Assembly: GCA_030645235.1 (NCBI GenBank)
Contig: JAUSMV010000030.1
Span: 620,001 to 684,000 of the forward strand
DNA: 64,000 nucleotides
From: Parvibaculum sp.
GTDB taxonomy: Bacteria > Pseudomonadota > Alphaproteobacteria > Parvibaculales > Parvibaculaceae
Direction of reading: 5' to 3'
Shown here: positions 4,379-27,050 of the stretch, in pieces
How positions within the stretch are numbered: the first letter of the stretch is position 1
How the letters are laid out: every line of letters begins with the position of its first letter
Program-made: the position numbers and the translations under genes
The notes under the pieces: model-generated
The model's database searches: none
Seen by the model: the letters and a program-made list of their open reading frames with translations, nothing else
Told to the model about the DNA's origin: nothing

Positions 4379-4385
4379 TCCACCG

Positions 4386-9232: not shown

Positions 9233-9313
9233 TGGCGACAGCAAAAATCACTATATACTTGAACCAATACACTCCCAGCCAAGAGCACCAGCGATGAGCC
9301 AAGGGTAAATGGA

Positions 9314-10816
9314 ATGCAAAGCGCCAACGATCAAGGACATTCGATTGAGGCTATCAGGAAATTGGCGGGACCGGATCGCCGGATCGCTTTCGTGTCCGGC
9401 AATTTCAACGTCGTCCATCCCGGCCATCTTCGCATTCTCAAGTTTGCGAAGGAGAATGCCGACTTCCTTGTTGTCGGCGTGACGCCAGATTCAACCGCTG
9501 GTGTATCACTTCCTGCGACGCTGCGCCTTGAAGGTTTGTTGGCCATCTCGATCGTCGACTATACATTTCTTCTCAGCGAGCCCCCAGAAGAATTCATAGC
9601 ACGTCTCAAGCCTGAAGTTGTCGTGAAAGGCAAAGAGTACGAAGCGAGAGTAAATTCGGAACAATCAACTGTGGAAAGTTACAACGGCAAACTCCTTTTC
9701 AGCTCCGGCGAAATGCGATTTGCATCCTTCAACCTCCTGCAAAAGGAATATTACGAAGCGGATCTTTCAATGATTCGTAAGCCGCTCGACTTCCCCAAAC
9801 GACGCGGATTTCTTGTGCCCGATCTGAAGGCAATTTTGCCCAAATTAGCAGGCCTGCGCGTTCTGGTTATCGGCGATCTCATTGTGGATACCTATCTCAA
9901 TTGCGAACCGCTTGGCATGTCACAGGAAGATCCGACAATTGTAGTGACCCCGATTGATGAAAAATCATTCATCGGGGGGGCAGGCATTGTTGCTGCACAT
10001 GCCGCGGGCCTTGGAGGCAACGTTCATTTCATAACCGTCGCTGGCAAAGACGAATGGATGGAATTTGCAGAATCTGCTTTGCAAAACTCACATGTTAGTT
10101 TCGATATTCTTCTGGATTCGACACGCCCTACCACACACAAAAAACGCTTCCGCGCGAACGGGAAAACTTTATTGCGAGTCAATAATTTGCGTCAGCATGC
10201 CATCAATTCTGAACTCACCGAAGAGATGCTCAACGCTGTTCGCTTACGCTTGAAGCAGACAGACCTCATTTTGTTTTCTGATTTCAATTATGGCTGCCTG
10301 CCGCAACCGCTGGTCGATGCTGTCATTGATATGGCGCGAGAACACGAAATTATGATGGCTGCTGACAGCCAGGCGTCTTCCCAGATTTCAGACATATCAC
10401 GGTTTAAAGGTATGGAACTTGTGACCCCGACCGAACGTGAGGCACGGCTTGCTTTACGAGATCAGGAATCCGGGCTCGTCATACTCGGTGAGCGGCTTCA
10501 GCTTGCTGCGAGTGCACATAATGTCATCATCACACTTGGCTCCGAAGGCCTTCTCATTCACGGCAATCACGAGGGCAACTTCGTAACGGACCGCCTCCCA
10601 GCATTCAACTCATCGCCCAAGGACGTGGCCGGCGCCGGTGACAGTCTTTTCACCTGCACAGCGATGGCACGTTGCGTAGGCGTCGATATTTGGCAAAGCG
10701 TTTACCTTGGCGCACTTGCTGCCGGTTGTCAGGTATCGCGTGTCGGCAATACGCCTTTATCCCTGGAAGAATTGATTACTGAGATTGAAGACCCCGCCTC
10801 ATATTCAACAAACTAA
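9314..10816 (+). CDS. Bifunctional protein: N-terminal cytidylyltransferase-like domain + C-terminal PfkB/HldE-like sugar kinase (domain order opposite to HldE)
   Basis: N-terminal FVSGNFNVVHPGHLRILKFAKENADFLVVGV (HxGH) and VVKGKEYE; C-terminal LVIGDLIVDTYLNCEP...FIGGAGIVAAHAAGLGG... and DVAGAGDS. Confidence 0.85.
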   Translation: MQSANDQGHSIEAIRKLAGPDRRIAFVSGNFNVVHPGHLRILKFAKENADFLVVGVTPDSTAGVSLPATLRLEGLLAISIVDYTFLLSEPPEEFIARLKPEVVVKGKEYEARVNSEQSTVESYNGKLLFSSGEMRFASFNLLQKEYYEADLSMIRKPLDFPKRRGFLVPDLKAILPKLAGLRVLVIGDLIVDTYLNCEPLGMSQEDPTIVVTPIDEKSFIGGAGIVAAHAAGLGGNVHFITVAGKDEWMEFAESALQNSHVSFDILLDSTRPTTHKKRFRANGKTLLRVNNLRQHAINSELTEEMLNAVRLRLKQTDLILFSDFNYGCLPQPLVDAVIDMAREHEIMMAADSQASSQISDISRFKGMELVTPTEREARLALRDQESGLVILGERLQLAASAHNVIITLGSEGLLIHGNHEGNFVTDRLPAFNSSPKDVAGAGDSLFTCTAMARCVGVDIWQSVYLGALAAGCQVSRVGNTPLSLEELITEIEDPASYSTN

Positions 10817-10834
10817 TGGTCAGGTCGGTTTCTA

Positions 10835-11542
10835 ATGCGCGCGCTACTGCTAGCAGCTGGAATGGGTACACGTCTTCGTCCTATCACCAACGCGATCCCA
10901 AAATGCCTTGTCCCTATCCACGGACGACCCTTACTGGACTATTGGCTTGAACTCCTATTTGACGACAACGCCATTGAAAGAATACTCGTCAACACTCACT
11001 ATCTTTCGAACAAAGTTGATAGCTTTGTCGCGAACTCGCGGCATCGCGACCGAATTGATCTCATCTACGAGCCGAGTCTTTTGGGGACAGGTGGAACGAT
11101 GGTTGCTAATCGTGAGTATTTTTCGGACAATGCACTCCTTGTGGCGCACGCGGATAATCTCACTGATTTTGACGTCAAAGCATTTATGCAGGCTCACGAA
11201 ATGCGCCCGCAAGGCTGCGTCATGACTATGCTTGCTTTCCGCACTGACGATCCCCGATCATGTGGCGTGCTAGAACTCGACAGACGAAATGTGCTCCAAG
11301 CCTTTTATGAGAAAGTTGCAGAACCACCGACCAATCTCGCCAATGCAGCTGTTTACATCGTGGAACCGGAGGTCATTGCCTTTATGGCTTCACTTGGGAA
11401 AGATTTTATTGACCTGAGCACAGAAGTCATTCCGCATTTTATTGGTCGCATTTTCGTGTTTGAGACAAGTGGCTACCATCGGGATATCGGAAGCGTTGAA
11501 AGCCTGGCACGCGCGAACCTTGAGTTCTCCCCGAAAAATTAA
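10835..11542 (+). CDS. Sugar-phosphate nucleotidyltransferase (HddC/RmlA-like)
   Basis: MRALLLAAGMGTRLRPITNAIPKCLVPIHGRPLLDYWLE signature. Confidence 0.9.
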   Translation: MRALLLAAGMGTRLRPITNAIPKCLVPIHGRPLLDYWLELLFDDNAIERILVNTHYLSNKVDSFVANSRHRDRIDLIYEPSLLGTGGTMVANREYFSDNALLVAHADNLTDFDVKAFMQAHEMRPQGCVMTMLAFRTDDPRSCGVLELDRRNVLQAFYEKVAEPPTNLANAAVYIVEPEVIAFMASLGKDFIDLSTEVIPHFIGRIFVFETSGYHRDIGSVESLARANLEFSPKN

Positions 11543-11553
11543 GACTCATCTTC

Positions 11554-13137
11554 CTAACTCTTTACTACCAAACCTTGTCCAGTGGGGAGCTCTAAAACAG
11601 CGTTCCCACGCGATGACATAAACTGATCAGCAGCTTCTTTTTGCTTGCCAAACAACTTCCAACCATAGTCATCAAAGATGATAATACCGCCAGGGGTTAC
11701 GCGATCGTATAATACGTTAAGGCAGCCAAGTTCCGCGCGCCATGAATTCAGATCAACATGCAGGAAACTCACCTTATCTGGTGCGTTTCCTTTCAGTGCC
11801 TCCGGCAAAAAGCCTTTGTGGACCTTCACCTGAGGCGAGTCCTGAAAACGCGATAATACGCTCTCATATAGTCCTGTTTTTTTGTAAAATTGATTGGAGT
11901 AATTTAAGAATCCATTGTTTCCAGGATAGTCGTCCTCTGACGACAAAGAAGGCGAGAAGCCGTCGAAGGAATCAAACAAATGGAACGCCTTCCGAGCCTG
12001 CGCGATGTCACACATAGCGCAAATAAAGGCCGCCATATCGCCGCGAAAAGTACCACACTCAACAAAATCACCATCAAGCGAAAGGCCGATCCGCGCCGCC
12101 CAAACGAGGGTGTGCAATCTCCATGCAATAGAACCTGATCCCATATATTGATCATACGGATGATCCTTCGGGAATGCTTCAAATGCGGCGGTGAAATCAG
12201 GTTCCTCCATAAAGCCCGCGGCTTTGTCCAATGTCAGCAGACGGTCACCCCAGAAATGCGAAATGTGGCTCCGAGCCGAAACATGGTCCACAACTGCGTT
12301 AAAAAACTTTGTCGCTTCGTCATTTGGACCGGTTGAGAGCCTGTTGATATTCTCGCTGAGGCTCTCATCGGATGCCGCCGCCTTCGCCGGGTCAGACGGG
12401 AATAACACACTATTCGCAGGCAGAAGTCTGATAAGTTTATCAAACTTTGCTTCGTCCAACTTCCAGAAATTGTGCACGCGCACTATCGGCAATTCGCCGA
12501 TTTTTACGCGCGCGCTGTCAATCGCAATGTCGATATAGACTGAATGCGGGTTTACCTTCGCGTAGCCTTGTAGCGCCGACAAACAGTCTCGCGCCTGATC
12601 GACCGTTGTACCCACGCAAAGAGCAAGTGCCATGGCGTCAGCGATGACATGACGTAGAGCATCATTACCGGTGCTGCTGGCATAAGCCACAAACAACAAG
12701 GAGAGCGTCGCAACACGGTCCAACACCGGCGCTTTATCGGAAGCCACCGCCGTCACTGATGTGAGTTCGTAAGCCGGATAGCCCCAGTAGAGAGGATGCG
12801 AAACACCGTCCGGCAAGCCGATGAAACAGGATATGTCGGGTTCATCTTCGGCCGCAAACAACCAGCATCCGAAGAGATTTGCAGCCTCCACCGCTCTGCC
12901 GCTCAAAGCCTCTGTTAATCCACGTAACAAAAGCGAATTAGAATAGCCAACCTCGCCCATCAAATCGGTAATGAACCGGGACGCCTCATTTTGCGTGGGA
13001 CAGACGATGTAGTTATCTGACGCAGATGCCTGAGCGGTACGGCGAACAAGAAAAAGCGGGTGAACACCCAATTGAGTTATTTTGCTCAACATCCCCCGAT
13101 CAAATCTCACCGCTTCATATCCTCTCCACTTGAGCAC
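11554..13137 (-). CDS. TylF/MycF-family O-methyltransferase with long N-terminal extension
   Basis: GDFVECGTFRGDMAAFICAM...FHLFDSFDGFS...FLHVDLN...TPGGIIIFDDYGW. Confidence 0.85.
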   Translation of the reverse strand: MLKWRGYEAVRFDRGMLSKITQLGVHPLFLVRRTAQASASDNYIVCPTQNEASRFITDLMGEVGYSNSLLLRGLTEALSGRAVEAANLFGCWLFAAEDEPDISCFIGLPDGVSHPLYWGYPAYELTSVTAVASDKAPVLDRVATLSLLFVAYASSTGNDALRHVIADAMALALCVGTTVDQARDCLSALQGYAKVNPHSVYIDIAIDSARVKIGELPIVRVHNFWKLDEAKFDKLIRLLPANSVLFPSDPAKAAASDESLSENINRLSTGPNDEATKFFNAVVDHVSARSHISHFWGDRLLTLDKAAGFMEEPDFTAAFEAFPKDHPYDQYMGSGSIAWRLHTLVWAARIGLSLDGDFVECGTFRGDMAAFICAMCDIAQARKAFHLFDSFDGFSPSLSSEDDYPGNNGFLNYSNQFYKKTGLYESVLSRFQDSPQVKVHKGFLPEALKGNAPDKVSFLHVDLNSWRAELGCLNVLYDRVTPGGIIIFDDYGWKLFGKQKEAADQFMSSRGNAVLELPTGQGLVVKS

Positions 13138-13155
13138 ATCAGGTGTTACTCAAAC

Positions 13156-14205
13156 TCACGATATCACAAGCATCTCTCTCTTTATTTTGCGCAACTCCTC
13201 GAGCCGCTCAATTGAAGCCTTCTCATTGGGTCGGATTTTTAGCACAGCTTCCAATGTTTCAATTTCGAGATCAACCGGCACATCCTTGCCTTGCTCACTG
13301 AGCAACTTACAAAGCCGTTGCAACATGGCTGGATCACCGACGCTTAATTTGATCGCATGCCAGAGCGCCAACTCTTCGATATGGATCGGAACCGTCTCGC
13401 CACGCTGCACGCTTTCCCGAACCAATTGGAGCATGCGCATGCCGCTCTCTTCATCGTCGCTAGCGGCGCTCTCGGCGACTGACTGATGATAGGCGGCTAT
13501 AACTTCGGTAATGGGACCGTCAGCCATGATACGGCCTTGCTCCAGAAAAATACCACGGTTGCAAATTGCGGACAGAAGGCCAGGTGAATGAGAGGCCATA
13601 ACCAGGATCGATGAACGCTCCGCCAGATCGACAATTCGTTTCTGAGCCTTGTCGGCAAACTGCGCATCGCCCGTCCCCAGGGCTTCATCGACCAGCAAAA
13701 TCTGCGGATTGATCGACGTGGCGATGGAGAAAGATAAACGCATCCCCATACCGGCGGAATAGACACGAACCGGCATGTCCAAATATTCACCCAAACCTGA
13801 GAACTTGGCGATTTCATCGACCTTCGCCAATACCTCTTTCTTCGTCATGCCGAGAAACAGACCGCAATTCACAATGTTTTGATAGCCAGTATCGTCAGGC
13901 TCCATGCCCGCACTCGCATGGAACAAAGCCGAAATATTTCCGTTTATCTCGATAGTGCCCTTTTTCGGTGCATAGATTCCGGACATCGTGCGGAGCAAAG
14001 TCGACTTCCCCGCGCCGTTGTGACCAATCAAACCGACACGTTCTCCCTTGTTGATCTCAATCGAAATATCGTTCAACGCATGTACAATGCCGGCTTTGCG
14101 ATCTATCTCTCCGCCCGCGCGACGCACAAAGCCACGCAACGCACGTCCAACACCGACACGCACAGAAAACTCAACTGAGACATCGTTCAGTTTGATAAAA
14201 GCCAT
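13156..14205 (-). CDS. Polysaccharide ABC exporter ATP-binding protein (Wzt/KpsT-like)
   Basis: Walker A GHNGAGKST, signature YSAGMGMRLSFSIATS, Walker B ILLVDEALGTGD; start set to MAFIKLNDVSVEF. Confidence 0.92.
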   Translation of the reverse strand: MAFIKLNDVSVEFSVRVGVGRALRGFVRRAGGEIDRKAGIVHALNDISIEINKGERVGLIGHNGAGKSTLLRTMSGIYAPKKGTIEINGNISALFHASAGMEPDDTGYQNIVNCGLFLGMTKKEVLAKVDEIAKFSGLGEYLDMPVRVYSAGMGMRLSFSIATSINPQILLVDEALGTGDAQFADKAQKRIVDLAERSSILVMASHSPGLLSAICNRGIFLEQGRIMADGPITEVIAAYHQSVAESAASDDEESGMRMLQLVRESVQRGETVPIHIEELALWHAIKLSVGDPAMLQRLCKLLSEQGKDVPVDLEIETLEAVLKIRPNEKASIERLEELRKIKREMLVIS

Positions 14206-14206
14206 A

Positions 14207-14989
14207 CTAGTACCAATAGGCCATGCGACGCCGCACACCGGCATAAATCAAAAATGTCGCCAGCGAGCCGACGATAGCCATACCCCCACACCAAATCCAG
14301 TTTTCGGAATCCGGCATGCGTCCGGCGAGGGGTTCGCGTACGATCTGCAGTAAATGATAGAGCGGATTATACTCAACCGCCCAAGCAAGCGACGGCGCGA
14401 TGAGCGCTACTGGCCAGAAAACCGGCGTCACGAATTGCGCCACCTGTATACCAATGCTCACCAGCATTTGAATGTCGCGGGCTTTGAGACAGATGATGCC
14501 AACCAGCATCGCCATCCACACGCAGTTGATTGAGGTCAATAAAAAGCCCGGCACCAGCAAAAGCATAGCGGCATTAGGAGGCGTTTGATAGACGATCATC
14601 AGCGCCACAATGAGCAAGAGATGATGCGCAAACGTGATCGCCAGTTTCCAGATCAATCCGAGGACCAAAACCGGATAAGGCAGATTGATCGTCAGAATTG
14701 TTTGCTGGGCATTCAGGAACACAGCCGTGCCTTCCAATATCGCTGCGGAAATAAAGCTCCACGCGACAAGGCTGGGCGTGAGATGATTTGCGTAACTATG
14801 AAAGTCGGTTTTTAGCACGGACGCCCAAATGAGGCCCATGCAGAGGATAAAAACACCAAGCGACAGCGTATGCCACAGCGGTCCGAGAACGGTTCGGCGA
14901 TACCGACGCGCAACATCAGCCCATCCAAGATGCAGCCAAAGTTGGGTTAGATGCAAAGTGCGTTTGCAATCATCAAACACAGCGTCCAT
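14207..14989 (-). CDS. Polysaccharide ABC exporter permease (Wzm/ABC-2 type)
   Basis: RYRRTVLGPLWHTLSLGVFILCMGLIWA; multiple TM segments; stop abuts start of the ATPase gene. Confidence 0.92.
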   Translation of the reverse strand: MDAVFDDCKRTLHLTQLWLHLGWADVARRYRRTVLGPLWHTLSLGVFILCMGLIWASVLKTDFHSYANHLTPSLVAWSFISAAILEGTAVFLNAQQTILTINLPYPVLVLGLIWKLAITFAHHLLLIVALMIVYQTPPNAAMLLLVPGFLLTSINCVWMAMLVGIICLKARDIQMLVSIGIQVAQFVTPVFWPVALIAPSLAWAVEYNPLYHLLQIVREPLAGRMPDSENWIWCGGMAIVGSLATFLIYAGVRRRMAYWY

Positions 14990-15243
14990 TCTGCCTCAGA
15001 ATACGTTATGAGAGGATGTCTGCGACGCCAAACCGCTGATCGTCTCTCGAAATTTAAGAATCCAAATGACCTTTTTTGACTCTATGCAATGGACCCAAAC
15101 CCTCAACTTTCCTCAAAAAGACTACCACATATCGATTCTCAGCTTCCACTATAAGCACTATAGGAGAAAAATACCGGGGCCGCACATCGTGCTGTCCCTC
15201 CCTCGCATAGATTTTCTGCTCTTCACAACGCTTAGAACGCGAA

Positions 15244-16272
15244 ATGGATAATATCGATCTTAACGGCGTCCCTATCGGCGATCTCAATCGGGACGGGCTG
15301 GACCTTTTGGATGACGCAACCTTGCAGTCTTATGCCGCACATTTCGCGCACCATGGATTCGAAAATGAAAGCAGAAACTTTCGCTTACTAACGCAAATTC
15401 TCGATATCTACAAACATCACGACGCTCGGGAATTAGTCGATCTGTTTCATAGGTCGATTCCCTTTCCTTCCTACCCTTGGTTTCAGAGCGAGAGCCTTGC
15501 GTCATACCTGAATTTCTCCGCTCACTATTTTCAACAATTGACGGCGGCGAAAGAGGCCAACCGGCCCAACATCCCCTTCTTTGCCTTTCCAAAGACCGGT
15601 AGCAGTTTTGTCACAAGCACCTTTTCTACCGCCCTCGATATCCCCTTCGGTATAACGAGCGTCGAAGGCCGCCATGCGGTTCCCGCATGGTCAAAACTCT
15701 TCACGTCAGGACCCGGCGTTCTGCACGATCATTTATGGATGAACAAAGCCAACTCGGCGATCTTTCTGACTGCCAAATTTGAAAGAATGATTGTCCACGT
15801 CCGCGATCCGCGTCAGATCATCATCTCCATTGCTCATCACGTACCTGAAAGTCCTACAACAGCGCAAATTTTCGGTGATGTCCGGGTGAGTGACCTGAAG
15901 TCACGCTCCCCCGCTGAAATCATTCAAAACGTCATCGACAGGGGACAGTTCATTTCCGCCTATAACAGGTGGCTCGAAGATTGGCTTGAAGAACGCCATA
16001 AATTTCGGATCATGATTTCACGCTATGAAGTCATGAACGAAGATGTTCATAAATTCTTTCACGACGTTTTGAAATTTTGCAATGCCGATCAAGATGCCGT
16101 CGCCACCACCATGACCTATCTCGACAATCAATCCGACAAAGAGCGCGGGAAGAATTTTAATTTCCGCGCAGGCAGTTCCGACGAATGGAAAGACGTCCTC
16201 AGCGACCAGCAAAAAGACGCCATCGCCCGCCAAATGCAAGGTACCAAACTCCGGGAGCTTTATGAGGACTGA
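15244..16272 (+). CDS. Sulfotransferase-like protein
   Basis: FFAFPKTGSSFVTSTF (PAPS 5'-loop-like) and MIVHVRDPRQIIISIAHH (3'-phosphate-like motif). Confidence 0.65.
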   Translation: MDNIDLNGVPIGDLNRDGLDLLDDATLQSYAAHFAHHGFENESRNFRLLTQILDIYKHHDARELVDLFHRSIPFPSYPWFQSESLASYLNFSAHYFQQLTAAKEANRPNIPFFAFPKTGSSFVTSTFSTALDIPFGITSVEGRHAVPAWSKLFTSGPGVLHDHLWMNKANSAIFLTAKFERMIVHVRDPRQIIISIAHHVPESPTTAQIFGDVRVSDLKSRSPAEIIQNVIDRGQFISAYNRWLEDWLEERHKFRIMISRYEVMNEDVHKFFHDVLKFCNADQDAVATTMTYLDNQSDKERGKNFNFRAGSSDEWKDVLSDQQKDAIARQMQGTKLRELYED

Positions 16273-17195
16273 TCAGGCTGCGATGACCGCCCCCGCAAGA
16301 GACGCGCCAGAATGTTTTTATATGATCTTGGCTCCGGCCTGTATTTATTGATAAGCACCGAAATACGCTCAAACGCTTGTGGTTCGAAAACAGTCCAATA
16401 GCGATCATGTAAGGCTTTGTTGTCCGTCGTCACACCGGTGGGCACATCAATCGGTGGGACGAATTCGATGTCGTAAACTTTCTTCAGGATCACCTTGATC
16501 ATGACGTCTTCTGTGCGATAGGCATCAACCAGAGGTGATGTTTTTTCTGTTGTCTGCATATTATCCCGGATATTGTCCGGCATAGCGTAAGTGTCACCAG
16601 CTGGCTGCACCGTGAGATAGTTCAAGGTATAGCCATTGCTCCGCGCCAACATCCAAAAGAATTTGGGATTATAATTTACTAAGCCATGATTCATCATGCC
16701 TTGCGCAGGTAGATTATGCATCATAAGCCCGCCAAGTTTCGTCAGATCATGAATGACCTTGAAGGCATTAAGCTGATTGCAAACGTGCTCTGTCGTGCCA
16801 AAATTTGTCACAAGATCATACTGTCCACGATGTCTACGTGGAATGGCATCAACGTTCAGATCAATCGGGATGCTCCCCGGACTTCCATCAATATCAATTG
16901 ACGCGTATTCAAAACCAAGATCGGTCCAGAAACTCCGGGCAAAGGGCGCATCTGCCGCCTGATGCTCCAAAACACCATGCTGAATAGCCTGGGTATGAAT
17001 CTGACTCGATTGATCGGCCGAAGCATCGCGCTCTTTGCCAAACAGTTTATATAGCTTCGTAAGCTCGCTACCTGCTCCCAAAAACGAATTTGAGAGCTGC
17101 TGTGCTCCGATCTCAACCACCCGTTTTGCGTCACTCAACTCGCCTGTATTCTTCAGGAGAGTCAAATCGTAAATCAGGTCACTTCCGATACCCAT
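16260..17195 (-). CDS. SAM-dependent methyltransferase-like protein
   Basis: RVVEIGAQQL; YDLVTNFGTTEHVCNQLNAFKVIHDLTKLGGLMMHNLP. Confidence 0.6.
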   Translation of the reverse strand: MGIGSDLIYDLTLLKNTGELSDAKRVVEIGAQQLSNSFLGAGSELTKLYKLFGKERDASADQSSQIHTQAIQHGVLEHQAADAPFARSFWTDLGFEYASIDIDGSPGSIPIDLNVDAIPRRHRGQYDLVTNFGTTEHVCNQLNAFKVIHDLTKLGGLMMHNLPAQGMMNHGLVNYNPKFFWMLARSNGYTLNYLTVQPAGDTYAMPDNIRDNMQTTEKTSPLVDAYRTEDVMIKVILKKVYDIEFVPPIDVPTGVTTDNKALHDRYWTVFEPQAFERISVLINKYRPEPRSYKNILARLLRGRSSQPDQSS

Positions 17196-17336: not shown

Positions 17337-19283
17337 TCAGCGGGCATTTTCTGGACCAGCCAGCCCGCACTCAAGAATCGCATAGCTCCCTAAGCCCGCC
17401 TCGCCAGGGATTGCAAATTTCATCTTCGATCCGGTTTGGCCGCATTGATACTCGACACGATAATCCTTTTCGCAGCCCCGCGCAGGGTCGCCAAGTTTGC
17501 TCACATCGACACGATAAGCACAGCTCATCTGACCTGTGCAAACGCGCTCAATATCTTTCGTGACATTGCCCCGCCTAGCGCCGCAGTTTTCCCCATAGCT
17601 CGCAGACAGAACCCGAACGCCGTCTTCATGCTTGCCGCTCTGGAGTTTGAGCGCAGTGTCTGGACACATCAGGGAGGCAGATATCTTTCCCGCAGCACCC
17701 GTCACTATGTCCGCACGCAGCGCCTGCGGATTTTTCGAACACTGATAGGCGACAGTCAAGTCGTCCGGAGAACAACCCGGCTGAAGGCGTTTTAGTTTTC
17801 GACTGTCAATGTTGTAGCTGCAAGTTTCCCGCCCGTCACAAACCCGCCGCAACAGATTGGTTGCATTCCCTGCCGTACCTCCGCAAGTCTTTCCATAGGA
17901 GGCGGAAATGACTCCGATGCCCCCATACACAGCGAGTTTTGGAAGAAAGGTCGACACGTAAAGTGCAACAGCAAGAGCCGTCACAACCGGTATCGCGACA
18001 ACGATCAACGCAAGCTGCCGTCCTTTCAGATTGAACACCTTTACGTCTTGGCCACCCCAGAGAGCTTTGAGCCAGCGCCGGACAGGTACATCAAAACTCC
18101 GGTGCAACAGGACGGACGCCAACAAGAGTAGCACCATGCCCGCGGAAAATCGGATGAGTGAACCCGTTACGCCCACTCCGTCACCGAGCGCCGGCTGAAA
18201 CAGCTTGGCGACAAGCACAAAAACCGGAATGTGGATAAGGTATAGTTCATAGCTCGCATCGCCAAACTTCGTCATCCAGCGCGCCGACACAAAGCGCGTC
18301 AGTGGATCCCGATACCGAGCCATGCAGAAAATCAGAATCGCTACGCTTGGTGCCACGGCAAAGCTGTTGCGTAATTTGATGAGCAGCAACGGCGAAACTA
18401 CGTCCATATACATGACCACAGTGATTATGATGATCGTTGCAATGGCCACTGCTTGAAATAATGCTCCAGAGATACGTTCGACTTTTCTAACGGGAATTTT
18501 CTCCACCAGCAGATAGAGCTGCGCGAAAATGCAACCCAAAACAAACTCACCAATTCTCACATAAGGCGAAAAGTAAAGCAGCCAGCGGTAATAAGAATCC
18601 TGATAGGAAGTGACCTGAGATGCGATTTCGCCATATTTCTCAATCGCCCATGGTTCAATCACATTCATGCGATCAAACAAGACCACAATAAACGCCGCCC
18701 AAATGGCACACCAGAAAATGGCGGCCGCAATGGCGATAGAGGGCCGGCGTAACAAAAGAATAATGGGTGCAATGAGAGGGAACGCAAGATAGAAAAACCA
18801 TTCCGTGCTGATCGACCATGTGACGGGTACGGCAAGTCCGATCGCATATATCAACGAATAATCGCGAATGGGTACATAAACCCAGCTTTGTAATGACAAG
18901 AGATAGTAGGGTAAGGCGCGCAACTGAGCATCTGGCTGAAGGAGTTCGCCCGGACGAAGCGTATGGAACGTGAAATCTAGCGCGAGCAAAAGCAGAAAGA
19001 GCGGGTAGAGGCGGACAAACCGCGCCCACATAAAAGCGCCGATGCCGCGCAAGCCACCTTGCGTCACCGATGTCCGGTAGTTGAGATGAATAACAAACCC
19101 GCTCAGGACGAAAAACAACGTCATGCCAAAAGCTGTGCCGCGACCCAACCAATCGATAATGTATGCGTGCTCAGGACCAAAGCGCAGCGTGATCCCTGCG
19201 CCATGAGCAACGGCGACAGATAATGCCGCAATGAAACGCAGTCCGGTGAGTGCGGGGATGTCATTCTTGTCCGAGCTTAACAC
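17337..19283 (-). CDS. Acyltransferase family 3 (OafA-like) with two C-terminal Cys-rich SUEL/Gal-lectin-like repeats
   Basis: IPALTGLRFIAALSVAVAHG; SGFVIHL; C-terminal repeats SASYGKTCGG...CDGRETCSY...GC...VAYQC and SASYGENCGA...CTGQMSCAY...GDPARGCEKDYRVEYQC. Confidence 0.85.
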   Translation of the reverse strand: MLSSDKNDIPALTGLRFIAALSVAVAHGAGITLRFGPEHAYIIDWLGRGTAFGMTLFFVLSGFVIHLNYRTSVTQGGLRGIGAFMWARFVRLYPLFLLLLALDFTFHTLRPGELLQPDAQLRALPYYLLSLQSWVYVPIRDYSLIYAIGLAVPVTWSISTEWFFYLAFPLIAPIILLLRRPSIAIAAAIFWCAIWAAFIVVLFDRMNVIEPWAIEKYGEIASQVTSYQDSYYRWLLYFSPYVRIGEFVLGCIFAQLYLLVEKIPVRKVERISGALFQAVAIATIIIITVVMYMDVVSPLLLIKLRNSFAVAPSVAILIFCMARYRDPLTRFVSARWMTKFGDASYELYLIHIPVFVLVAKLFQPALGDGVGVTGSLIRFSAGMVLLLLASVLLHRSFDVPVRRWLKALWGGQDVKVFNLKGRQLALIVVAIPVVTALAVALYVSTFLPKLAVYGGIGVISASYGKTCGGTAGNATNLLRRVCDGRETCSYNIDSRKLKRLQPGCSPDDLTVAYQCSKNPQALRADIVTGAAGKISASLMCPDTALKLQSGKHEDGVRVLSASYGENCGARRGNVTKDIERVCTGQMSCAYRVDVSKLGDPARGCEKDYRVEYQCGQTGSKMKFAIPGEAGLGSYAILECGLAGPENAR

Positions 19284-19323
19284 GACACTTGCCCCACCAC
19301 CTTCTTAGACCCAAGCGCAAGTC

Positions 19324-20370
19324 TTACATCCTAACCATGACACGGCCTGCGGTGTCACCACCACGCATTGCAGCGATGGCTTTGTTAATATCGTCGAGGC
19401 TAAAACGAGCTGTAACGAGGCGATCGAGATCGATAACACCTTGCGCGTATAGCGATTGGTAGCGTGGTATATCAATCTCGGGAACAGCTTCGCCGCCGTG
19501 CGAACCGCTAATGGATTTTCCGAAATGAAGTGGCAGAGAATAGATCGTTGTGTCACTGCCCTTCTTTGGCACACCTACCAGCACAACACGACCCTGCGGC
19601 TTTGTAATTTCATAACCCATCTGAATGATCGGTGGCTGACCTGTATTGTCGATAAAGACATCCAGACCTTGCACGCCTGTGATTTTCTCGATGGTGGCAC
19701 GCGCATCACTTGTTTTGGCGTTGATTAAATGGGTCGCGCCCAATGAGCGAGCGAGTTCGAGCTTGTTATCATAAAGATCAACAGCGATAATTGGATACGC
19801 CGTCGAGAGAGCGGCCGCCTGAATAATGTTGAGGCCGATGCCACCGGCACCAAAGACAACAACGGACTCGCCAATGTTAATTTTGGCATTGTTAACGACG
19901 ACGCCGAAGCCCGTGGTGACAGCGCAGCCAAACAAAGCAGCGACTTCCATGTTGCTATCAGCGGGAATTTTAGTCAGGCGATTTTCAGAAATGATGGCAT
20001 GCTGGCTGAAAGTCGTGACCCAACCGGCATTGACCTTTTTGCCATCCCACAAATAAGCAGGTGGCTGGGCCTCGATGCCCGGACCTTTACGCCAATGCAT
20101 GACGACTTTGTCATCGGGCTTCACCTGACGCACACCTGCACCGACAGCGAGCACTGTGCCAGACGCTTCATGCCCGAGAAGATGCGGCAGAAATCTATCC
20201 GGACCCTTCGCACCATCGATTTCGCCGATCTGCGAGCCGCAAATGCCGCTATGCTGGATTTGAACAAGCACTTGCCCAACATCGAGAGCGGGCGGCAAAT
20301 CTATCTCCGCAACGACAAGAGGTTGGCGCTGCTCAACAAGGATCGCGGCTTTTGTTTTTGTGGGAAGCAT
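19324..20370 (-). CDS. Zinc-binding medium-chain alcohol dehydrogenase
   Basis: GHEASGTVLAVGAGV; VVFGAGGIGLNIIQAAAL; start set to MLPTKTKAAILVEQ. Confidence 0.88.
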   Translation of the reverse strand: MLPTKTKAAILVEQRQPLVVAEIDLPPALDVGQVLVQIQHSGICGSQIGEIDGAKGPDRFLPHLLGHEASGTVLAVGAGVRQVKPDDKVVMHWRKGPGIEAQPPAYLWDGKKVNAGWVTTFSQHAIISENRLTKIPADSNMEVAALFGCAVTTGFGVVVNNAKINIGESVVVFGAGGIGLNIIQAAALSTAYPIIAVDLYDNKLELARSLGATHLINAKTSDARATIEKITGVQGLDVFIDNTGQPPIIQMGYEITKPQGRVVLVGVPKKGSDTTIYSLPLHFGKSISGSHGGEAVPEIDIPRYQSLYAQGVIDLDRLVTARFSLDDINKAIAAMRGGDTAGRVMVRM

Positions 20371-20380
20371 CAGAGCAGTC

Positions 20381-21049
20381 CTATTCGAAATAGATGAAGG
20401 AATGATCGCCGCTATACCCGGTCTGTTTGAACCACCACGCCCATTCATCCGGCGTGTTAAAGGCTTCGCATGTCACCTGCCAATAGAGGAGGTTCGCCTT
20501 TTCGGTTTCGTTCCGATAAGACTCAACGCAAATATATTTGTGTTTCTTGCCGACGCGCTCCATCTCGCGCAACGCTGGATCAAGGTCATAGTTATGCAGG
20601 TTGTGTAATGTGTTGATCGAGAAGACAAGATCAAACTCATTGTCGGCAAAAGGCAACCTATTGGCGTGGCCCACTTGCACACGGTCTTTTACGCCTTCAA
20701 CGACGTTTTCAATTGCGTATTCAGACACGTCAATGCCGCGTACTTCGACGCCCGACACGACTTGCGTAAAGTCATAAATCAGGAAGCCTTTGCCGCAACC
20801 GATGTCGAGGATCTTGTCACCGGGTTTAATACCGTAGTGGTCGGCCATAGCTTTGGCTACTTTTGCCCAGCGCCCGTCATAGCGGTAGCCACCATAATTG
20901 ACGCGACGATCGCCGTCCCAATAATCAAAACCCCATTTCTTCGCGAGGTCAGCCGCCTTGGCCTTCGGAAATTCGGGGTCGTTGACACGCGCGAGATAGT
21001 CTCGCGTCGTGGCCTTGTGGATGACGGATAGGAAATCGACGTAAGCCAT
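20381..21049 (-). CDS. Class I SAM-dependent methyltransferase
   Basis: ILDIGCGKGFLIYDF; FDLVFSINTLHNL. Confidence 0.9.
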   Translation of the reverse strand: MAYVDFLSVIHKATTRDYLARVNDPEFPKAKAADLAKKWGFDYWDGDRRVNYGGYRYDGRWAKVAKAMADHYGIKPGDKILDIGCGKGFLIYDFTQVVSGVEVRGIDVSEYAIENVVEGVKDRVQVGHANRLPFADNEFDLVFSINTLHNLHNYDLDPALREMERVGKKHKYICVESYRNETEKANLLYWQVTCEAFNTPDEWAWWFKQTGYSGDHSFIYFE

Positions 21050-21058
21050 TAAAAATCC

Positions 21059-22081
21059 TCAGTGCTTCAGTGCGGTCAACGCAACTCTGACCTTATCAAG
21101 TTGCATCCGTTTGCGCAGAGACTTTTCAGCCTCCGGATTGGCAAAGCGACGCCGCTTTGCATCATCGGGGAGAAAATCGTTCAGCATGATGCAAGCCCAT
21201 TTCAGTTTTTGAGCCGGCAACAGGATACGGGCGCGACGCTTCAGACCCTCCGCGTCGTCACAAAAAAACATTGTACGCTCAAGGAAGCGCTCGAAATGAT
21301 CGGCCGACACAGGCACCTGCGGTTGGCAAAAGAAGTCCGCCGCCATCTTGGCCGGATCGTCCAGGCCGGCATACTCAAAATCGATAAAAGTGACGCCGCC
21401 GTCTGGGCGCAACAATGCATTGTGAAAGCCGAAATCGGAGGGGGAGACGCAACGTTGAACGGAAGGTAAAACCTGATCGGGTTCAAGTTGGCATATAGCG
21501 AGTTCGGCCTTAATCACCCTTTTGGTTGAGGTCCATACCTTTTCGATCTCCGCCACATAGGATCTGGCTTCCTTACCCGCCTCGTCGTCGATTTCAATCG
21601 CAGCAAGACGTGCGACGCGGCGGTCGATGAGTGAACAATGATCGGCTATACTGAAACAGGCTTCGGAGGCGACGGGCATTTCTTTCGCATATTCAGCGCG
21701 GTCAGCGCCGTTGAGCGCGACAAAAAAATCTGCCGCCATGTCAACATGGCGAGCATTCAGCTCCTGCGTTGAGAGTTTTCGTCCCTCGATAAACTCGTAA
21801 AGACCGATACCGTTCTCTTCGTCCTTGGCAATGGGTTTGGGTACATTCGAAATACCCTGCCCTATTGCATAAACGATAAGTGACCATTCAGCGCCGAGGC
21901 GATCGCGTGGGTCCTGTCCGCTGCGATAATATTTTTTGGCGAGGACACGTTTGTTGCGCAGATGAATTTCATAGACGAGATTATTGCCACCCTCGCGGCA
22001 GGGACAAGCAGAAAATTCGCTAAGGTCCTCGCCTTGAAGAGTGAGAAGCATTTTGACCTGTGTCAAAAATTCATTAGACAC
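21059..22081 (-). CDS. Aminoglycoside phosphotransferase (APH)-like small-molecule kinase
   Basis: VLAKKYYRSG; SPSDFGFHNALLRPDGGVTFIDFEYAGLDDPAKMAADFF (HN..FxDFE motif); GTG start overlapping upstream gene. Confidence 0.8.
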   Translation of the reverse strand: MSNEFLTQVKMLLTLQGEDLSEFSACPCREGGNNLVYEIHLRNKRVLAKKYYRSGQDPRDRLGAEWSLIVYAIGQGISNVPKPIAKDEENGIGLYEFIEGRKLSTQELNARHVDMAADFFVALNGADRAEYAKEMPVASEACFSIADHCSLIDRRVARLAAIEIDDEAGKEARSYVAEIEKVWTSTKRVIKAELAICQLEPDQVLPSVQRCVSPSDFGFHNALLRPDGGVTFIDFEYAGLDDPAKMAADFFCQPQVPVSADHFERFLERTMFFCDDAEGLKRRARILLPAQKLKWACIMLNDFLPDDAKRRRFANPEAEKSLRKRMQLDKVRVALTALKH

Positions 22082-22685
22082 GTGTCACCCCAAGATGGCG
22101 CGCAATGCTACCCCAAGACGTCTGGCGCAACAGGCTTGTATGATCCGTATGAATATCGTCGGGATCAAAGAGGATAGGGCTTACGCCCGAGGGGAAATAG
22201 GAAGCCAGTAAAATTTCCGGCAGATCATCGATGAAAAAATCGCATTGAAGCACGCCGACACGGACGAGTTTCTCTTCTTTGGTGAGTTCAAAATAGGCGC
22301 GGTCGGAGGGGATCAAAGCGCCCTGTTCGTCACGCAACGATGCCTCAACCCAAGTGCGGGCCGCCTCATGCAAATCATATTGCACACCGCGGAAAGGATA
22401 GCGCGTCTTATGACTGACGATAAAAAGCTCATGACCCTGTACCTGTGCCGCACGCATAAAGTCAAAGGCACCGGGATAGGCAATGGCTTCCGCCATGCGT
22501 CCGCCATAGACCGTACCCTGCATTTCGGTCCAGTCATCTTCGCGGCCAATTTTTCGCAGGTGATCGCGCACAGCAACTTTGGTTTGCACTATGTTTGGAG
22601 GAACAAGCCCCGCCTCATGCGCCACTTTGAAAAATAGCGCGTCGTAGCTCACGATTGTGTTATCGAAATCTATTCCGATGCGCAT
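22074..22685 (-). CDS. HAD-like hydrolase/phosphatase
   Basis: MRIGIDFDNTIVSYD (DxDxT-type), FIVSHKTR, FIDDLPEI. Confidence 0.8.
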   Translation of the reverse strand: MRIGIDFDNTIVSYDALFFKVAHEAGLVPPNIVQTKVAVRDHLRKIGREDDWTEMQGTVYGGRMAEAIAYPGAFDFMRAAQVQGHELFIVSHKTRYPFRGVQYDLHEAARTWVEASLRDEQGALIPSDRAYFELTKEEKLVRVGVLQCDFFIDDLPEILLASYFPSGVSPILFDPDDIHTDHTSLLRQTSWGSIARHLGVTRV

Positions 22686-22692
22686 CGGGCAC

Positions 22693-23616
22693 TCATGCCA
22701 AAGCCGCTTTGATCTTTTGTGCCATGTGTTCAGCGCCAAGGCCCAATTGTTCGCGGGCATATTCCTGTTCGCCTGACAAACGGAAGAATGCGTCCGGTGT
22801 ACCAAAGCGCAGGAACTTCGAGATCTTCACCTCGCCATCAATCAGCCATTCCGACACGGCAGCGCCTAAACCACCAATGAGGCTGTGTTCTTCGATTGTG
22901 GCGACGAGTTTGAACCGCGAGAAGGCTTCGGCAAGGCAAGCTTCGTCGAGCGGCTTTACAGTGTGAAAACTCACGACGCGGGCCGTGATGCCCTGATCCC
23001 TCAACAGTTTCGCGGTATGCATGACTTCGGGCAGCATGTTGCCGGTGGAGAGCAGGCAAACATCCACGCCCTCTTCCACCGTGATGGCCTTGCCGATGGC
23101 GAAGTCTGCAGGGATACCGGCATGGACAACGGGTTCGCCCTTTTTACCCATGCGAATATAGACCGGGTTATCCTGTTTCAGCGCCGCGCGCATAGCGGCG
23201 CGCACTTCCCATGCGTCGGCGGGGCAGACAACTTTCATGTTAGGCAGCGAGCGCAAAATAGCGATGTCCTCGCAAGAGTGATGCGTAGGCCCCAGACCCG
23301 CATAGGACATACCCGCGCCAACAGCGACGATGATAACGGGGGCTTCCTGATAGCAGACATCAACGCGGATTTGCTCAAAGCAGCGCGAGGTAATGAAAGG
23401 CGTGATCGTGTAGGCGATGGGGCGCAAGCCTGACATGGCCATGCCCGCTGCAACGCCCATCATGTTTTGCTCGGCGACACCGCAGTTAAGAAAACGTGAT
23501 TCATGGGCAGCGCGGAACTTATCGAACAGACGGTTGCCAATGTCGCCCGACAGCATGACGACACGCGGATCTTCGTTGCCAAGCTTGGTGAGTTCGTCTG
23601 CGAATGCGTTTCTCAT
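22693..23616 (-). CDS. Transketolase, C-terminal subunit (pyrimidine-binding + C-terminal domains)
   Basis: VMLSGDIGNRLFDKFRAAHESRFLNCGVAEQNMMGVAAGMAMSGLRPIAYTITPF; ATG overlaps stop of upstream subunit (ATGA). Confidence 0.92.
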   Translation of the reverse strand: MRNAFADELTKLGNEDPRVVMLSGDIGNRLFDKFRAAHESRFLNCGVAEQNMMGVAAGMAMSGLRPIAYTITPFITSRCFEQIRVDVCYQEAPVIIVAVGAGMSYAGLGPTHHSCEDIAILRSLPNMKVVCPADAWEVRAAMRAALKQDNPVYIRMGKKGEPVVHAGIPADFAIGKAITVEEGVDVCLLSTGNMLPEVMHTAKLLRDQGITARVVSFHTVKPLDEACLAEAFSRFKLVATIEEHSLIGGLGAAVSEWLIDGEVKISKFLRFGTPDAFFRLSGEQEYAREQLGLGAEHMAQKIKAALA

Positions 23617-24455
23617 GCGAGGCCAAGCTCCTTGTGCGAAATCACAACTTCCTCGGCGGTCGGTGCGCGGTAATGCCAGTTATTGTCGTCTTCCATGAAG
23701 GAGACGCCTTTGCCTTTCACAGTGTGCGCGACAATCGCCACAGGCTTACCGCTGCCGTTCGGTACATTGGCCATCAGAGCGGCGACGGCACCGATGTCAT
23801 GACCGTCAACTTCAACCGCATCCCAGCCAAAGGCTTCCCATTTTTCACGCAAAGGCGCTAGCGCCAGCGTTTCATTAGAACGCGCTGTCGCCTGCCATTT
23901 GTTGTAGTCGATGATGACACAGAGATTTTCAAGATTCTGAGCGGCGGCAAACATCGCCGCTTCCCAAACAGAACCTTCGTTGCATTCGCCGTCGGACATC
24001 AGCGCATAGACACGGTATTTCTGACCTTTGATGCGGCCCGCAAGGGCCATTCCGTTGCCGATCGGCAGACCATGACCGAGTGAACCTGTCGCTGCCTCAA
24101 CACCGGGCAATGAATTTGCAGGCGGATGCTCTGCGAGTTTTCCGCCATCCTTCGTGTAGGTTTCGAGCAGGCTTTCAGGATAGAAGCTGCGAAAAGCGAG
24201 TGCAGAATAAATTGTAGTGGCCGCATGTCCTTTCGAAAGAATGAAGCGGTCGCGGAGTTCGTCCTTGGGTTGCTTCGGATCAATATGCAGCACATGCCAA
24301 TAAGCGGCGGCAACAATGTCACAGCAAGAAAGCGACGAGCCGAGATGCGCGCTACCCGCAGCATGAGACATTTCGATCACTTTGCCGCGCAGACGGCGCG
24401 CAGCATCTTCAAGCGATTTGACGTCTAGATTTGCCTTCGCGGCCTGAACATTCAT
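23613..24455 (-). CDS. Transketolase, N-terminal subunit (ThDP pyrophosphate-binding)
   Basis: SHAAGSAHLGSSLSCCDIVAAAYW; GSLGHGLPIGNGMALAGR; MSDGECNEGSVWEA; AAGGAGAC-like RBS upstream of ATG 24455. Confidence 0.93.
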   Translation of the reverse strand: MNVQAAKANLDVKSLEDAARRLRGKVIEMSHAAGSAHLGSSLSCCDIVAAAYWHVLHIDPKQPKDELRDRFILSKGHAATTIYSALAFRSFYPESLLETYTKDGGKLAEHPPANSLPGVEAATGSLGHGLPIGNGMALAGRIKGQKYRVYALMSDGECNEGSVWEAAMFAAAQNLENLCVIIDYNKWQATARSNETLALAPLREKWEAFGWDAVEVDGHDIGAVAALMANVPNGSGKPVAIVAHTVKGKGVSFMEDDNNWHYRAPTAEEVVISHKELGLA

Positions 24456-24487
24456 CGGAACGGTCTCCTTGCGCTGATCCGACAGGA

Positions 24488-25486
24488 TCAAGGCTTGTGC
24501 ATGTAGTCCGCAGGCAGGCGCTGCAACTGGTCGATATATTTTTCGGCCCAGAGGATTGTATCCTCCAAACCTTGTTCGAGCGAAATCTTATCACTCCAGC
24601 CAAGCTCTGTGCGCAGCTTATCGCTGTTGAGCATATAAGCTGTGTCTTTGCCGGGACGTTCATCCACAATTTCGACGGCTTGTGCCATGTCTTTGCCGAG
24701 GCGCTTGACAATCATCTCGACCAACTCGCAGATCGAAATAAGACGCGGCGTCGAGATGTGGTAAGTGTCACCCAATGTGCCTTTGAGGGCGATGGCAAGC
24801 GTTGCTGCCGACACGTCGCGCATATCAATAAATGAGCGAATCGAATGGCCGCCGCCGTGAAGCTGGAGCTTGCGACCCGTCATCGCAAACAAGATCGTGC
24901 GCGGCACGATGCGGTAAAGCTGCTGACCGGGACCAAAGACATTGGCCGCACGTGTCGAAACAGCCGGAAAGCCATGTTGCTTCACATAAGTCTTAAGACT
25001 CATGTCGCCCGCAGCGCGCGAGACGGCATAGGGCGTTGTCGGATTTAACGGCATATCCTCTTTGATCCAGCCATCTGTGCTGCCATAGACCTCCGGCGTC
25101 GTCACATGGACATAGCGGTCGAGAAAATCGAGATGGCGCAGGCGTTCATGCAAGCGCACGGTTGAAACGACATTGGTCATCATCCAATGGTCCGGATATT
25201 TCCAGCTTTCGCCGACCATGCTTTGCGCGGCGAAATTGACCACGTGGCTTGGACGTACGCGGCGCAGGATTTCATCGAGCTTGTCGAGGTCGTTGTTGAT
25301 ATCAACGGTCTCGAAGGTCACTGTGCCAGCGCGCTTCTGCCATTTGTAAGGCAGAAAGGCATCATGCGGTTCGGGCGAGCGGCTTGTCGCCACAACATCA
25401 TAACCCTGCCCCGCTAGATAGTCGGCAAAGGTCGCGCCGGAAAATGAATTCGAGCCGAGAATAAGAAATTTCTCGTTGGATGACAT
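24488..25486 (-). CDS. NDP-sugar 4,6-dehydratase-like SDR (GMD/RmlB family)
   Basis: FLILGSNSFSGATFADYL; VTTPEVYGST; YAVSRAAGDM. Confidence 0.88.
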   Translation of the reverse strand: MSSNEKFLILGSNSFSGATFADYLAGQGYDVVATSRSPEPHDAFLPYKWQKRAGTVTFETVDINNDLDKLDEILRRVRPSHVVNFAAQSMVGESWKYPDHWMMTNVVSTVRLHERLRHLDFLDRYVHVTTPEVYGSTDGWIKEDMPLNPTTPYAVSRAAGDMSLKTYVKQHGFPAVSTRAANVFGPGQQLYRIVPRTILFAMTGRKLQLHGGGHSIRSFIDMRDVSAATLAIALKGTLGDTYHISTPRLISICELVEMIVKRLGKDMAQAVEIVDERPGKDTAYMLNSDKLRTELGWSDKISLEQGLEDTILWAEKYIDQLQRLPADYMHKP

Positions 25487-25503
25487 ATTGAACTTCTATT
25501 CCG

Positions 25504-26112
25504 TCAATTAGAAACCTGATCGCGCTGCGTATAGAGCCACTGCATGATCATGTGCCCGACAATCAACTGCATGTCTTCTGAAATTTGCATGTCGTCAATA
25601 TTGAAGTGAATAGGAACATCGACCATGCCCAAAGCCTTGCCGCCCGTGTAGCCGAGAATGCCGTAGGATTTCATACCGATGCGCTTGGCTTCGTCGAGCG
25701 CCACCAAAATATTCGGTGAGTTGCCGCTGCCCGACAGCACAATCAGAACGTCGTCGGGGCGCGCCTGCACCGCGAGTTGCAACGAGAAAATCTTGTCATA
25801 GCCCTCATCATTCGCAAGGCAAGTCAGCACGGCGGAATTGGCGGGTAGCGCATGGATGCGAAGGCCTGAACCCGGCTTTTTGGAAATGCCGTAAACAAAA
25901 TCATTAGCAAGGTGGATGGCATTGCCTGCGCTACCGCCATTGCCTGCGATAAAAATCTGACGGCCCGTCTTCCAACAATCGAGGAACTCTTCGGCAAGCG
26001 CCGAAACAGGTGACCAGTCAGTGTCCGCCATCAACGCAGAGAGACGCACCGAATAGTCGGCGAACAAGGCGTTTGATTGGGAGAGCTCTGAGGAACCGCG
26101 CAGATTTTGCAT
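25504..26112 (-). CDS. SIS-domain phosphosugar isomerase (GmhA-like)
   Basis: IFIAGNGGSAGNAIHLANDFVYG; DVLIVLSGSGNSPNILVALDEAK. Confidence 0.85.
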   Translation of the reverse strand: MQNLRGSSELSQSNALFADYSVRLSALMADTDWSPVSALAEEFLDCWKTGRQIFIAGNGGSAGNAIHLANDFVYGISKKPGSGLRIHALPANSAVLTCLANDEGYDKIFSLQLAVQARPDDVLIVLSGSGNSPNILVALDEAKRIGMKSYGILGYTGGKALGMVDVPIHFNIDDMQISEDMQLIVGHMIMQWLYTQRDQVSN

Positions 26113-26114
26113 AC

Positions 26115-27050
26115 TCACAATACCTCTTTCTGCATCCACTTCAGATTGTGGAAGCGTTCCTCATCCTTCAGAGCATTCTGACGATAGAGGCCAACAATTT
26201 CACTCACGGCGTCTTCAACTGTCTTTTTGGGACGGAAGCCTGTCGCCAGCAGCTTGTCGGAATTCACGCGGTAAGACCGCGGATCGTTCGACGGCGTTAC
26301 GATGATTTCGGCAGGCACGTGTTTTGCGACAAGCTCGGCAATTTGCAGGATCGAGATATTCTCAAAACCTGCATTATAGACGCCGGTGTGCTCGGGATGA
26401 TCGATCAGAAAGAGATAGAGATCCGTGATGTCATCGATGTGAATATTGGGTCGTGTCTGATCGCCGCCAAAGACCGTGATGCGCCCATTGGTTAGCGCCT
26501 GCATAGTCAGCATGTTCACTGACACATCGAGGCGCATGCGCGGTGAAAATCCGCAAACAGTTGCCGGGCGCACGATTTGCACCACCATATCGTCTTTGTA
26601 GGAGAGCAAGATGCGCTCGCCGCACATTTTTGTTTTGTTGTATTCCGAGATCGGTAGCAGCTCGAGATCTTCGGTGACTTGTTCTTCGTCTTTGACACCG
26701 TAGACGCTGCCGGACGATGCATAGATGAAACGTTTAATACCCAGACGCTGCGCCTTGTCGGCAAGCTGCATAGTGGCAAGACAGGAGATTTCCCATGTGA
26801 GCTGCGGGTTGAGATCGCCGCACGGATCGTTTGCCACACTGGAAAGATGGATGATCGCGTCAACGTCGTCGAGATTGACCTCGTCAATGTTGCGGATGTC
26901 GCCCTGCACAACGGTCAGCGCCGGATGCGGCTGGAGGAAGTTTCCAAACCACATAATGTCAAAGGCCGTGACGCTGTGGCCCTTGGCCAATAGCTTCGGC
27001 ACAAGAACGCTCCCCTTATAGCCGCACGCACCCGTCACAAAAATCCGCAT
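26115..27050 (-). CDS. NAD-dependent epimerase/dehydratase
   Basis: MRIFVTGACGYKGSVLVPKLLAKGH; YASSGSVYG; YNKTKMCGE. Confidence 0.9.
   Translation of the reverse strand: MRIFVTGACGYKGSVLVPKLLAKGHSVTAFDIMWFGNFLQPHPALTVVQGDIRNIDEVNLDDVDAIIHLSSVANDPCGDLNPQLTWEISCLATMQLADKAQRLGIKRFIYASSGSVYGVKDEEQVTEDLELLPISEYNKTKMCGERILLSYKDDMVVQIVRPATVCGFSPRMRLDVSVNMLTMQALTNGRITVFGGDQTRPNIHIDDITDLYLFLIDHPEHTGVYNAGFENISILQIAELVAKHVPAEIIVTPSNDPRSYRVNSDKLLATGFRPKKTVEDAVSEIVGLYRQNALKDEERFHNLKWMQKEVL

Follow-up and report, generated by a model that had tools for sequence, protein, structure and literature searches.

Bradyrhizose is a ten-carbon, bicyclic, inositol-fused sugar whose aldehyde closes on OH-4, OH-5 or OH-9 (PMC9912281). 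Bradyrhizose lipopolysaccharide (LPS) does not trigger plant immunity. According to a 2016 paper (PMC4743980), the genes for bradyrhizose synthesis were unknown before that work assigned a cluster; it places gdh of Bradyrhizobium strain ORS285 in a cluster of eleven genes shared by six photosynthetic Bradyrhizobium strains and reports that an insertion in gdh leads to loss of the bradyrhizose O-antigen, and its authors deduced an operon from synteny. Split transketolases have been proposed, without in vitro proof, to hydroxyacetylate keto sugars in miharamycin and amipurimycin, and a 2025 review counted 13 putative ketone-accepting transketolases, all from Streptomycetes and none characterized in vitro (PMC12247030). 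Here, we analyzed a 64-kb stretch of Parvibaculum sp. DNA (contig JAUSMV010000030.1, positions 620,001 to 684,000; hereafter the window, whose positions and strands are used throughout) that contains eleven sugar-enzyme genes between positions 9314 and 27050. We consider it probable that this set, in which every gene of the bradyrhizose operon has its ortholog, makes the activated precursor of bradyrhizose, or of a closely related higher-carbon sugar that is C4-branched or carbocyclic, and that the sugar is destined for a polysaccharide.

Orthologs of the Bradyrhizobium operon in the window

Four Bradyrhizobium loci had flanks long enough to show the gene set. In the Bradyrhizobium aeschynomenes locus L103, which served as the reference for the identities given below, exactly eleven contiguous, co-directional genes occupy positions 2222-12330 with gaps of up to 129 bp. 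All of these are orthologs of window genes, and 11 of 11 window genes are orthologous to the L103 operon (45-85% identity). The published ORS285 gdh primers match the L103 gene for an RmlB-like short-chain dehydrogenase/reductase (SDR) with 1/23 and 2/24 mismatches, and their spacing (357 bases, start to start) agrees with the published gdh fragment of 300-400 bp; in a shuffled L103 control, the best primer matches had 8 and 9 mismatches. Because the primers match inside it, the RmlB-like gene is gdh, and its window ortholog (24488..25486, (−) strand) is 70% identical to the L103 copy. In a concatenated tree, the window fell inside a 13-member clade that holds all four Bradyrhizobium loci (support 1.0). 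Judged from gene content and sequence, orthology to the bradyrhizose cluster is strong, and the product class (bradyrhizose or a close relative) is probable.

The genomes of L103 and of a second Bradyrhizobium locus (L092) both have photosynthetic reaction-centre genes. More broadly, gdh was found in 16 of 272 Bradyrhizobium genomes, specifically in 10/27 with reaction-centre genes versus 6/245 without (p = 9e-8, with shared ancestry ignored). When the phototrophs were split by reaction-centre score, the counts were 10/11 and 0/16, a division chosen after seeing the data and descriptive only.

Nine of the window genes lie on the (−) strand. From 27050 downward, they encode an SDR of the extended epimerase family (26115..27050; 85% identity), a GmhA-like SIS isomerase (25504..26139), the RmlB-like SDR, the N-terminal, thiamine diphosphate (ThDP)-binding subunit (TkN, 23613..24455; 75%) and the C-terminal subunit (TkC, 22693..23616; 77%) of a split transketolase, a HAD phosphatase (22074..22685), an APH-fold small-molecule kinase (21059..22081), a class I S-adenosylmethionine (SAM) methyltransferase (20381..21049; 60%) that is kept with the set and is a candidate C-methyltransferase, and a Zn-dependent alcohol dehydrogenase (ADH, 19324..20370; 45%). 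The other two lie 8 kb away on the (+) strand (9314-11542) and encode an inverted HldE-like fusion, with an HxGH nucleotidyltransferase followed by a PfkB kinase (9314..10816; 57%), and a GT-A-type sugar-1-phosphate nucleotidyltransferase of the MurU/HddC/RmlA-like kind (10835..11542; 64%). An earlier note on this DNA had read the locus as a single coherent pathway that starts in the manner of heptose synthesis and yields an unusual activated sugar. The genes it named are real, intact open reading frames (ORFs) at about the places it gave, and the set further includes the SDR at 26115-27050, the class I methyltransferase at 20381-21049 and the ADH, which were absent from its list.

Catalytic residues and family assignments

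Family searches confirmed the folds of the set, and the specific heptose and dehydratase models all scored below their curated cut-offs. The folds assigned earlier to the SIS isomerase, split transketolase, HAD phosphatase, APH kinase and sugar-1-phosphate nucleotidyltransferase were borne out (for the HAD protein, by motifs and a predicted model). Catalytic residues are kept in the HAD, APH, TkN/TkC, fusion (HxGH and the PfkB aspartate) and SDR (YxxxK and SSxSVYG) proteins.

The SIS protein, a proposed ketose-phosphate to aldose-phosphate isomerase, matched PF13580, with gmhA (TIGR00441) as its best NCBIfam model at 105 bits against a cut-off of 209. Its metal site (H76, D80, E188 and H196) is family-specific: Asp and Glu replace the GmhA Glu and Gln in 58/58 cluster members, and the last His is present in 57/58, giving the pattern H-D-E-H rather than the H-E-Q-H of GmhA and placing the protein outside the GmhA equivalog. 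The RmlB-like SDR had been described as a "GMD-like" 4,6-dehydratase, a label we replace because it is nearer RmlB (TIGR01181, 201 bits with a cut-off of 365) than gmd (51 bits) and has altered active-site motifs. Specifically, it has TPE for TDE, GSNSFSG for GxxGxxG and, as in the window copy (YxxxR), usually Arg where YxxxK has Lys (Lys in 21/67 relatives), so that by triad, YxxxK and family score it falls outside both the dTDP-glucose and the GDP-mannose 4,6-dehydratases. The SDR at 26115..27050 is proposed to make a 4-keto or epimerised nucleoside diphosphate (NDP)-sugar.

TkN and TkC form a split transketolase in which the ThDP site is present and the ThDP-activating Glu49 of TkC is invariant. 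Residues R2 and R155 of TkC are also invariant and presumably correspond to the phosphate-binding residues of transketolase; the closest solved relative of TkC is the split transketolase of Carboxydothermus.

The likely start of the HAD gene is 22685, and motif residues D6, D8, T10, S91, K139, D153 and D154 of its product are invariant. No Pfam or NCBIfam family matched this protein, nor did a profile search against PDB sequences find a match. In its predicted model (mean predicted local distance difference test score [pLDDT] 98), the fold is nearest to capped 5'(3')-deoxyribonucleotidases and not to GmhB; with no NCBIfam match either, the protein is not a GmhB-type phosphatase. The APH protein has the PF01636 fold with D203, N208 and D221 (numbering of alignment A6) invariant, and its predicted model (95.6) is about equally like choline kinases, APH(9), methylthioribose kinase and others, suggesting no single substrate class.

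The domain order of the fusion is, as the earlier note had claimed, the reverse of that in the host's own HldE. Scores of 199 bits (cut-off 345) for TIGR02198 and 60 bits (cut-off 181) for TIGR02199 indicate a related protein under the equivalog level. The sugar-1-phosphate nucleotidyltransferase gene adjoins the fusion gene in nearly all loci that have the latter. In one relative (L106, 5496-6977), the nucleotidyltransferase domain of the fusion protein is without the HxGH motif.

A conserved core in many phyla

Loci were found by anchoring on the HAD gene in an even sample of the class and in a named collection. The HAD gene was present in 23 of 385 genomes of the class. Among the 15 class loci that were flanked by 7.5 kb or more of sequence to either side, TkN and TkC occurred in 14, APH, SDR and SIS in 13 each, and the fusion in 12. 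The 40 further loci from the named collection gave APH in 40, TkN and TkC in 39, RmlB-like SDR in 39, SDR in 38, ADH in 37, methyltransferase in 36, SIS in 27 and fusion in 26. In 74 of the 75 loci having all four, TkN, TkC, HAD and APH lie on the same strand within 8 kb. This recurrence is not a product of chance, and the idea of one coherent pathway is right.

A scan of the named collection returned at least 319 relatives, the best 80 of which included Pseudomonadota, Cyanobacteria, Verrucomicrobia, Planctomycetes, Chlamydiae, Armatimonadetes, Chloroflexi, Acidobacteria and others. Many relatives are metagenome bins whose taxon names may be wrong; the core is present in about a dozen or more phyla. 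Since gene arrangement varies among relatives, a single contiguous operon was not taken as a necessary trait of the bradyrhizose cluster. The closest relative (L011/L056) is a Parvibaculum metagenome-assembled genome (contig JAUSLL010000097.1) of the same genus group as the window genome and with the same overall layout. Pairwise distances correlated at 0.82-0.95 among TkN, TkC, HAD and APH, at 0.72-0.87 among SDR, SIS and fusion, and at 0.81 between methyltransferase and ADH. These three blocks fit branching, activation and tailoring modules, and since shared descent of the organisms yields such correlations too, they are supporting evidence only.

In a plasmid search, we found one carrier, pDCAR1 of Solidesulfovibrio carbinolicus, whose locus (L010, 6603-18493) contains two different split transketolase pairs, one of them with the HAD and APH genes of the set, and adjoining pseudaminic-acid genes. 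In L046, a large flagellin-like gene (3623-6352) adjoins a seven-gene core, and ORFs of ~900-970 amino acids (aa) occupy the same place in L044, L054 and others; in such loci, the sugar may decorate flagellin. Since some alphaproteobacterial loci adjoin large flagellin-like genes, flagellin glycosylation was considered for the window as well and rejected, its Wzm/Wzt pair making it look like a polysaccharide locus.

A set additional to the housekeeping heptose genes

A canonical GmhA and GmhB pair lies in the same genome ~3-4 kb before the window, a canonical HldE with the kinase domain first lies elsewhere in it, and so do a full-length transketolase and DXS (named from match length and position). 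The host thus has its own GmhA, GmhB, HldE and transketolase, and the set is therefore dedicated and additional to core heptose synthesis. The HAD gene was found in only 3 of 40 genomes of the order, which marks the set as an accessory island. Just before the window (L003, 15927-17137; genome C58:615927-617137), canonical GmhA is followed by a GmhB-like HAD gene beside two ABC exporters.

A possible route to the ten-carbon skeleton

Since the aldehyde of bradyrhizose closes on OH-4, OH-5 or OH-9, C4 would bear C3, C5, C9 and a hydroxyl, C4 to C9 would form the carbocycle, and there would be one further carbon. A candidate enzyme for each step of a route that builds this skeleton as 7+2+1 carbons can be named in the window, and we put forward the detailed chemistry as a whole tentatively, as less likely than not. 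The SIS isomerase would convert sedoheptulose-7-phosphate or a related ketose phosphate to an aldose phosphate, the PfkB kinase would phosphorylate C1, the HAD phosphatase would then strip the distal phosphate, and a nucleotidyltransferase would give an NDP-heptose (C1-C7), on which the SDR would form a 4-ketone. The split transketolase would transfer a hydroxyacetyl group from a ketose phosphate to this 4-ketone, yielding a tertiary alcohol at C4 with a two-carbon branch. ADH and/or the RmlB-like SDR would oxidise the terminal carbon (C7), and an intramolecular aldol reaction of the branch with the oxidised C7 would close a six-membered carbocycle. The heptose C1-C7, the C4 branch and the aldol step would together give three chain carbons and a six-membered ring, with the tenth carbon supplied from SAM by the methyltransferase (7+2+1=10). 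AmgK and MurU are an anomeric kinase/nucleotidyltransferase pair, and the APH kinase and sugar-1-phosphate nucleotidyltransferase may form a second such pair here.

Alternatives and points against the bradyrhizose assignment

An alternative that we regard as unlikely, though the best of those considered, leads to the same product class by different chemistry: TkN/TkC would act on an aldehyde, lengthening an aldose phosphate into a phosphate of the octulose or nonulose type before activation; SIS, the kinases, HAD and a nucleotidyltransferase would then activate it, and the SDRs would cyclise or modify it. Aldehydes are the acceptors of ordinary transketolases, and both the proximity of TkC to the ordinary split transketolase of Carboxydothermus and its retention of R2 and R155 (presumably phosphate-binding) agree with such a linear chain. 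The lincomycin octose pathway uses a transaldolase and an SIS isomerase in a similar manner. This extension alone, however, yields no tertiary alcohol at C4 of bradyrhizose, and making the ring would call for a further reaction that joins two carbons.

A product that is only an activated 6-deoxy- or otherwise modified heptose, with the transketolase merely supplying sedoheptulose-7-phosphate, seems improbable. The SIS isomerase, PfkB kinase, HAD phosphatase and nucleotidyltransferases do parallel ADP/GDP-heptose synthesis, but full-length transketolase, GmhA, GmhB and HldE are already in the host, the split transketolase is kept in the set more strictly than SIS or the fusion, HAD and SIS lie outside the GmhB and GmhA families, and in Bradyrhizobium the orthologous cluster has been linked to a sugar with ten carbons. 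The earlier expectation of "a modified heptose or an undescribed sugar" stands but was incomplete, in that the gdh mutants point to a ten-carbon carbocyclic sugar and not to an ordinary heptose (PMC4743980). Precursor supply, the role first suggested for the transketolase, is likewise unlikely given the full-length enzyme elsewhere in the host and the proposal that split ones branch keto sugars (PMC12247030). Finally, a chance neighbourhood of unrelated sugar genes, conceivable in that polysaccharide loci gather many sugar enzymes and the window set is split into two blocks on opposite strands, is refuted by the same genes standing together in dozens of loci in many phyla and as one contiguous block in Bradyrhizobium.

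Several observations weigh against a product of the bradyrhizose type or against the 7+2+1 route. The authors of the 2016 paper (PMC4743980) leave open that the gdh mutation is polar. In addition, bradyrhizose itself could still be synthesized in a mutant whose O-antigen is lost; L103 agrees with the published eleven-gene cluster in gene count and gdh, the two features compared, rather than gene by gene. The position and origin of bradyrhizose C10 are not stated in the sources used. TkN/TkC carry no sequence mark of a ketone acceptor, and the APH kinase has no firm role in the pathway. Between the SDR/SIS/fusion and transketolase blocks, distances correlate unevenly (0.39-0.77), which may mean that these blocks came together on more than one occasion. 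Many loci are without SIS, fusion, ADH, RmlB-like SDR or methyltransferase, and their products must therefore differ; many carriers are also not known as bradyrhizose makers.

Export and neighbouring genes

The DNA between the two blocks of the set codes for a Wzm/Wzt-like exporter pair as well as for a sulfotransferase, an acyltransferase and methyltransferases. The polysaccharide is probably exported by this pair, which consists of a Wzt-like ABC ATPase (13156..14244, (−) strand) and a Wzm-like ABC permease (14207..14989, (−) strand). A second class I methyltransferase (6483..7163, (−) strand) accompanies the set in many relatives as optional tailoring, and an RmlD-like reductase (7305..8186, (+) strand), also optional, does so in some.

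Three further window proteins were noted. An acyltransferase-3 membrane protein (17337-19283) has a C-terminal extension resembling SUEL lectin repeats (PF02140 just under cut-off), an unusual fusion. A TIGR04372 glycosyltransferase with a TPR-like N-terminus is encoded at 4386-6407, and the Solidesulfovibrio locus also has a TIGR04372 protein. A 2860-aa ORF (38162-46744) with GH94, glycoamylase and glycosyltransferase domains resembles cyclic beta-glucan synthase.

Significance

We found no bradyrhizose biosynthetic pathway in the literature searched, and none of it linked transketolase with phosphoheptose isomerase, APH kinase, flagellin glycosylation islands or O-antigen. As far as that literature shows, the cluster is known genetically in Bradyrhizobium, whereas its wide spread, kinship to heptose-type enzymes and pathway are new to it. 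An eleven-enzyme set with clear catalytic folds, tied to bradyrhizose and with a core in many phyla, provides a testable pathway; the spread of the core predicts where similar sugars should be sought, and the set brings a large group of related enzymes into view as candidate ketone-accepting transketolases. More speculatively, the operon could be a general and widespread means of making higher-carbon surface sugars that are carbocyclic or C4-branched: the split transketolase would add C2 to an NDP-4-keto heptose and aldol closure would give an inositol-like ring, bradyrhizose being only the first known product. If so, related sugars are expected in Herbaspirillum, Thalassospira, Cyanobacteria, Verrucomicrobia, Planctomycetes and others.

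Comparison with known systems

Relative to the gdh cluster of photosynthetic Bradyrhizobium (ORS285, ORS278, BTAi1 and others; PMC4743980), the window block keeps the order SDR, SIS, RmlB-like, TkN, TkC, HAD, APH and methyltransferase. The differences are that the fusion and the sugar-1-phosphate nucleotidyltransferase stand 8 kb off on the other strand, that ADH comes last whereas it precedes HAD in Bradyrhizobium, and that acyltransferase, sulfotransferase and more methyltransferase genes are interleaved in the window. The ADP- and GDP-glycero-manno-heptose pathways (GmhA, HldE or HddA/HddC, and GmhB) follow the same logic of SIS isomerase, PfkB kinase, nucleotidyltransferase and HAD phosphatase; the window set differs in its inverted fusion, SIS metal ligands and HAD family, and adds an APH kinase, a split transketolase, SDRs and a methyltransferase. 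The split transketolases of miharamycin and amipurimycin, compared here by description only, are likewise split-gene enzymes in a cluster for a tertiary-alcohol sugar but sit in Streptomyces antibiotic clusters, whereas those described here occur in cell-surface clusters of many phyla (PMC12247030). LPS-branching enzymes of the YerE/ErwE type are also ThDP enzymes that build a C4-branched tertiary-alcohol LPS sugar (PMC12247030); YerE-like enzymes are decarboxylases that use 2-keto acids, whereas the window enzyme is a transketolase.

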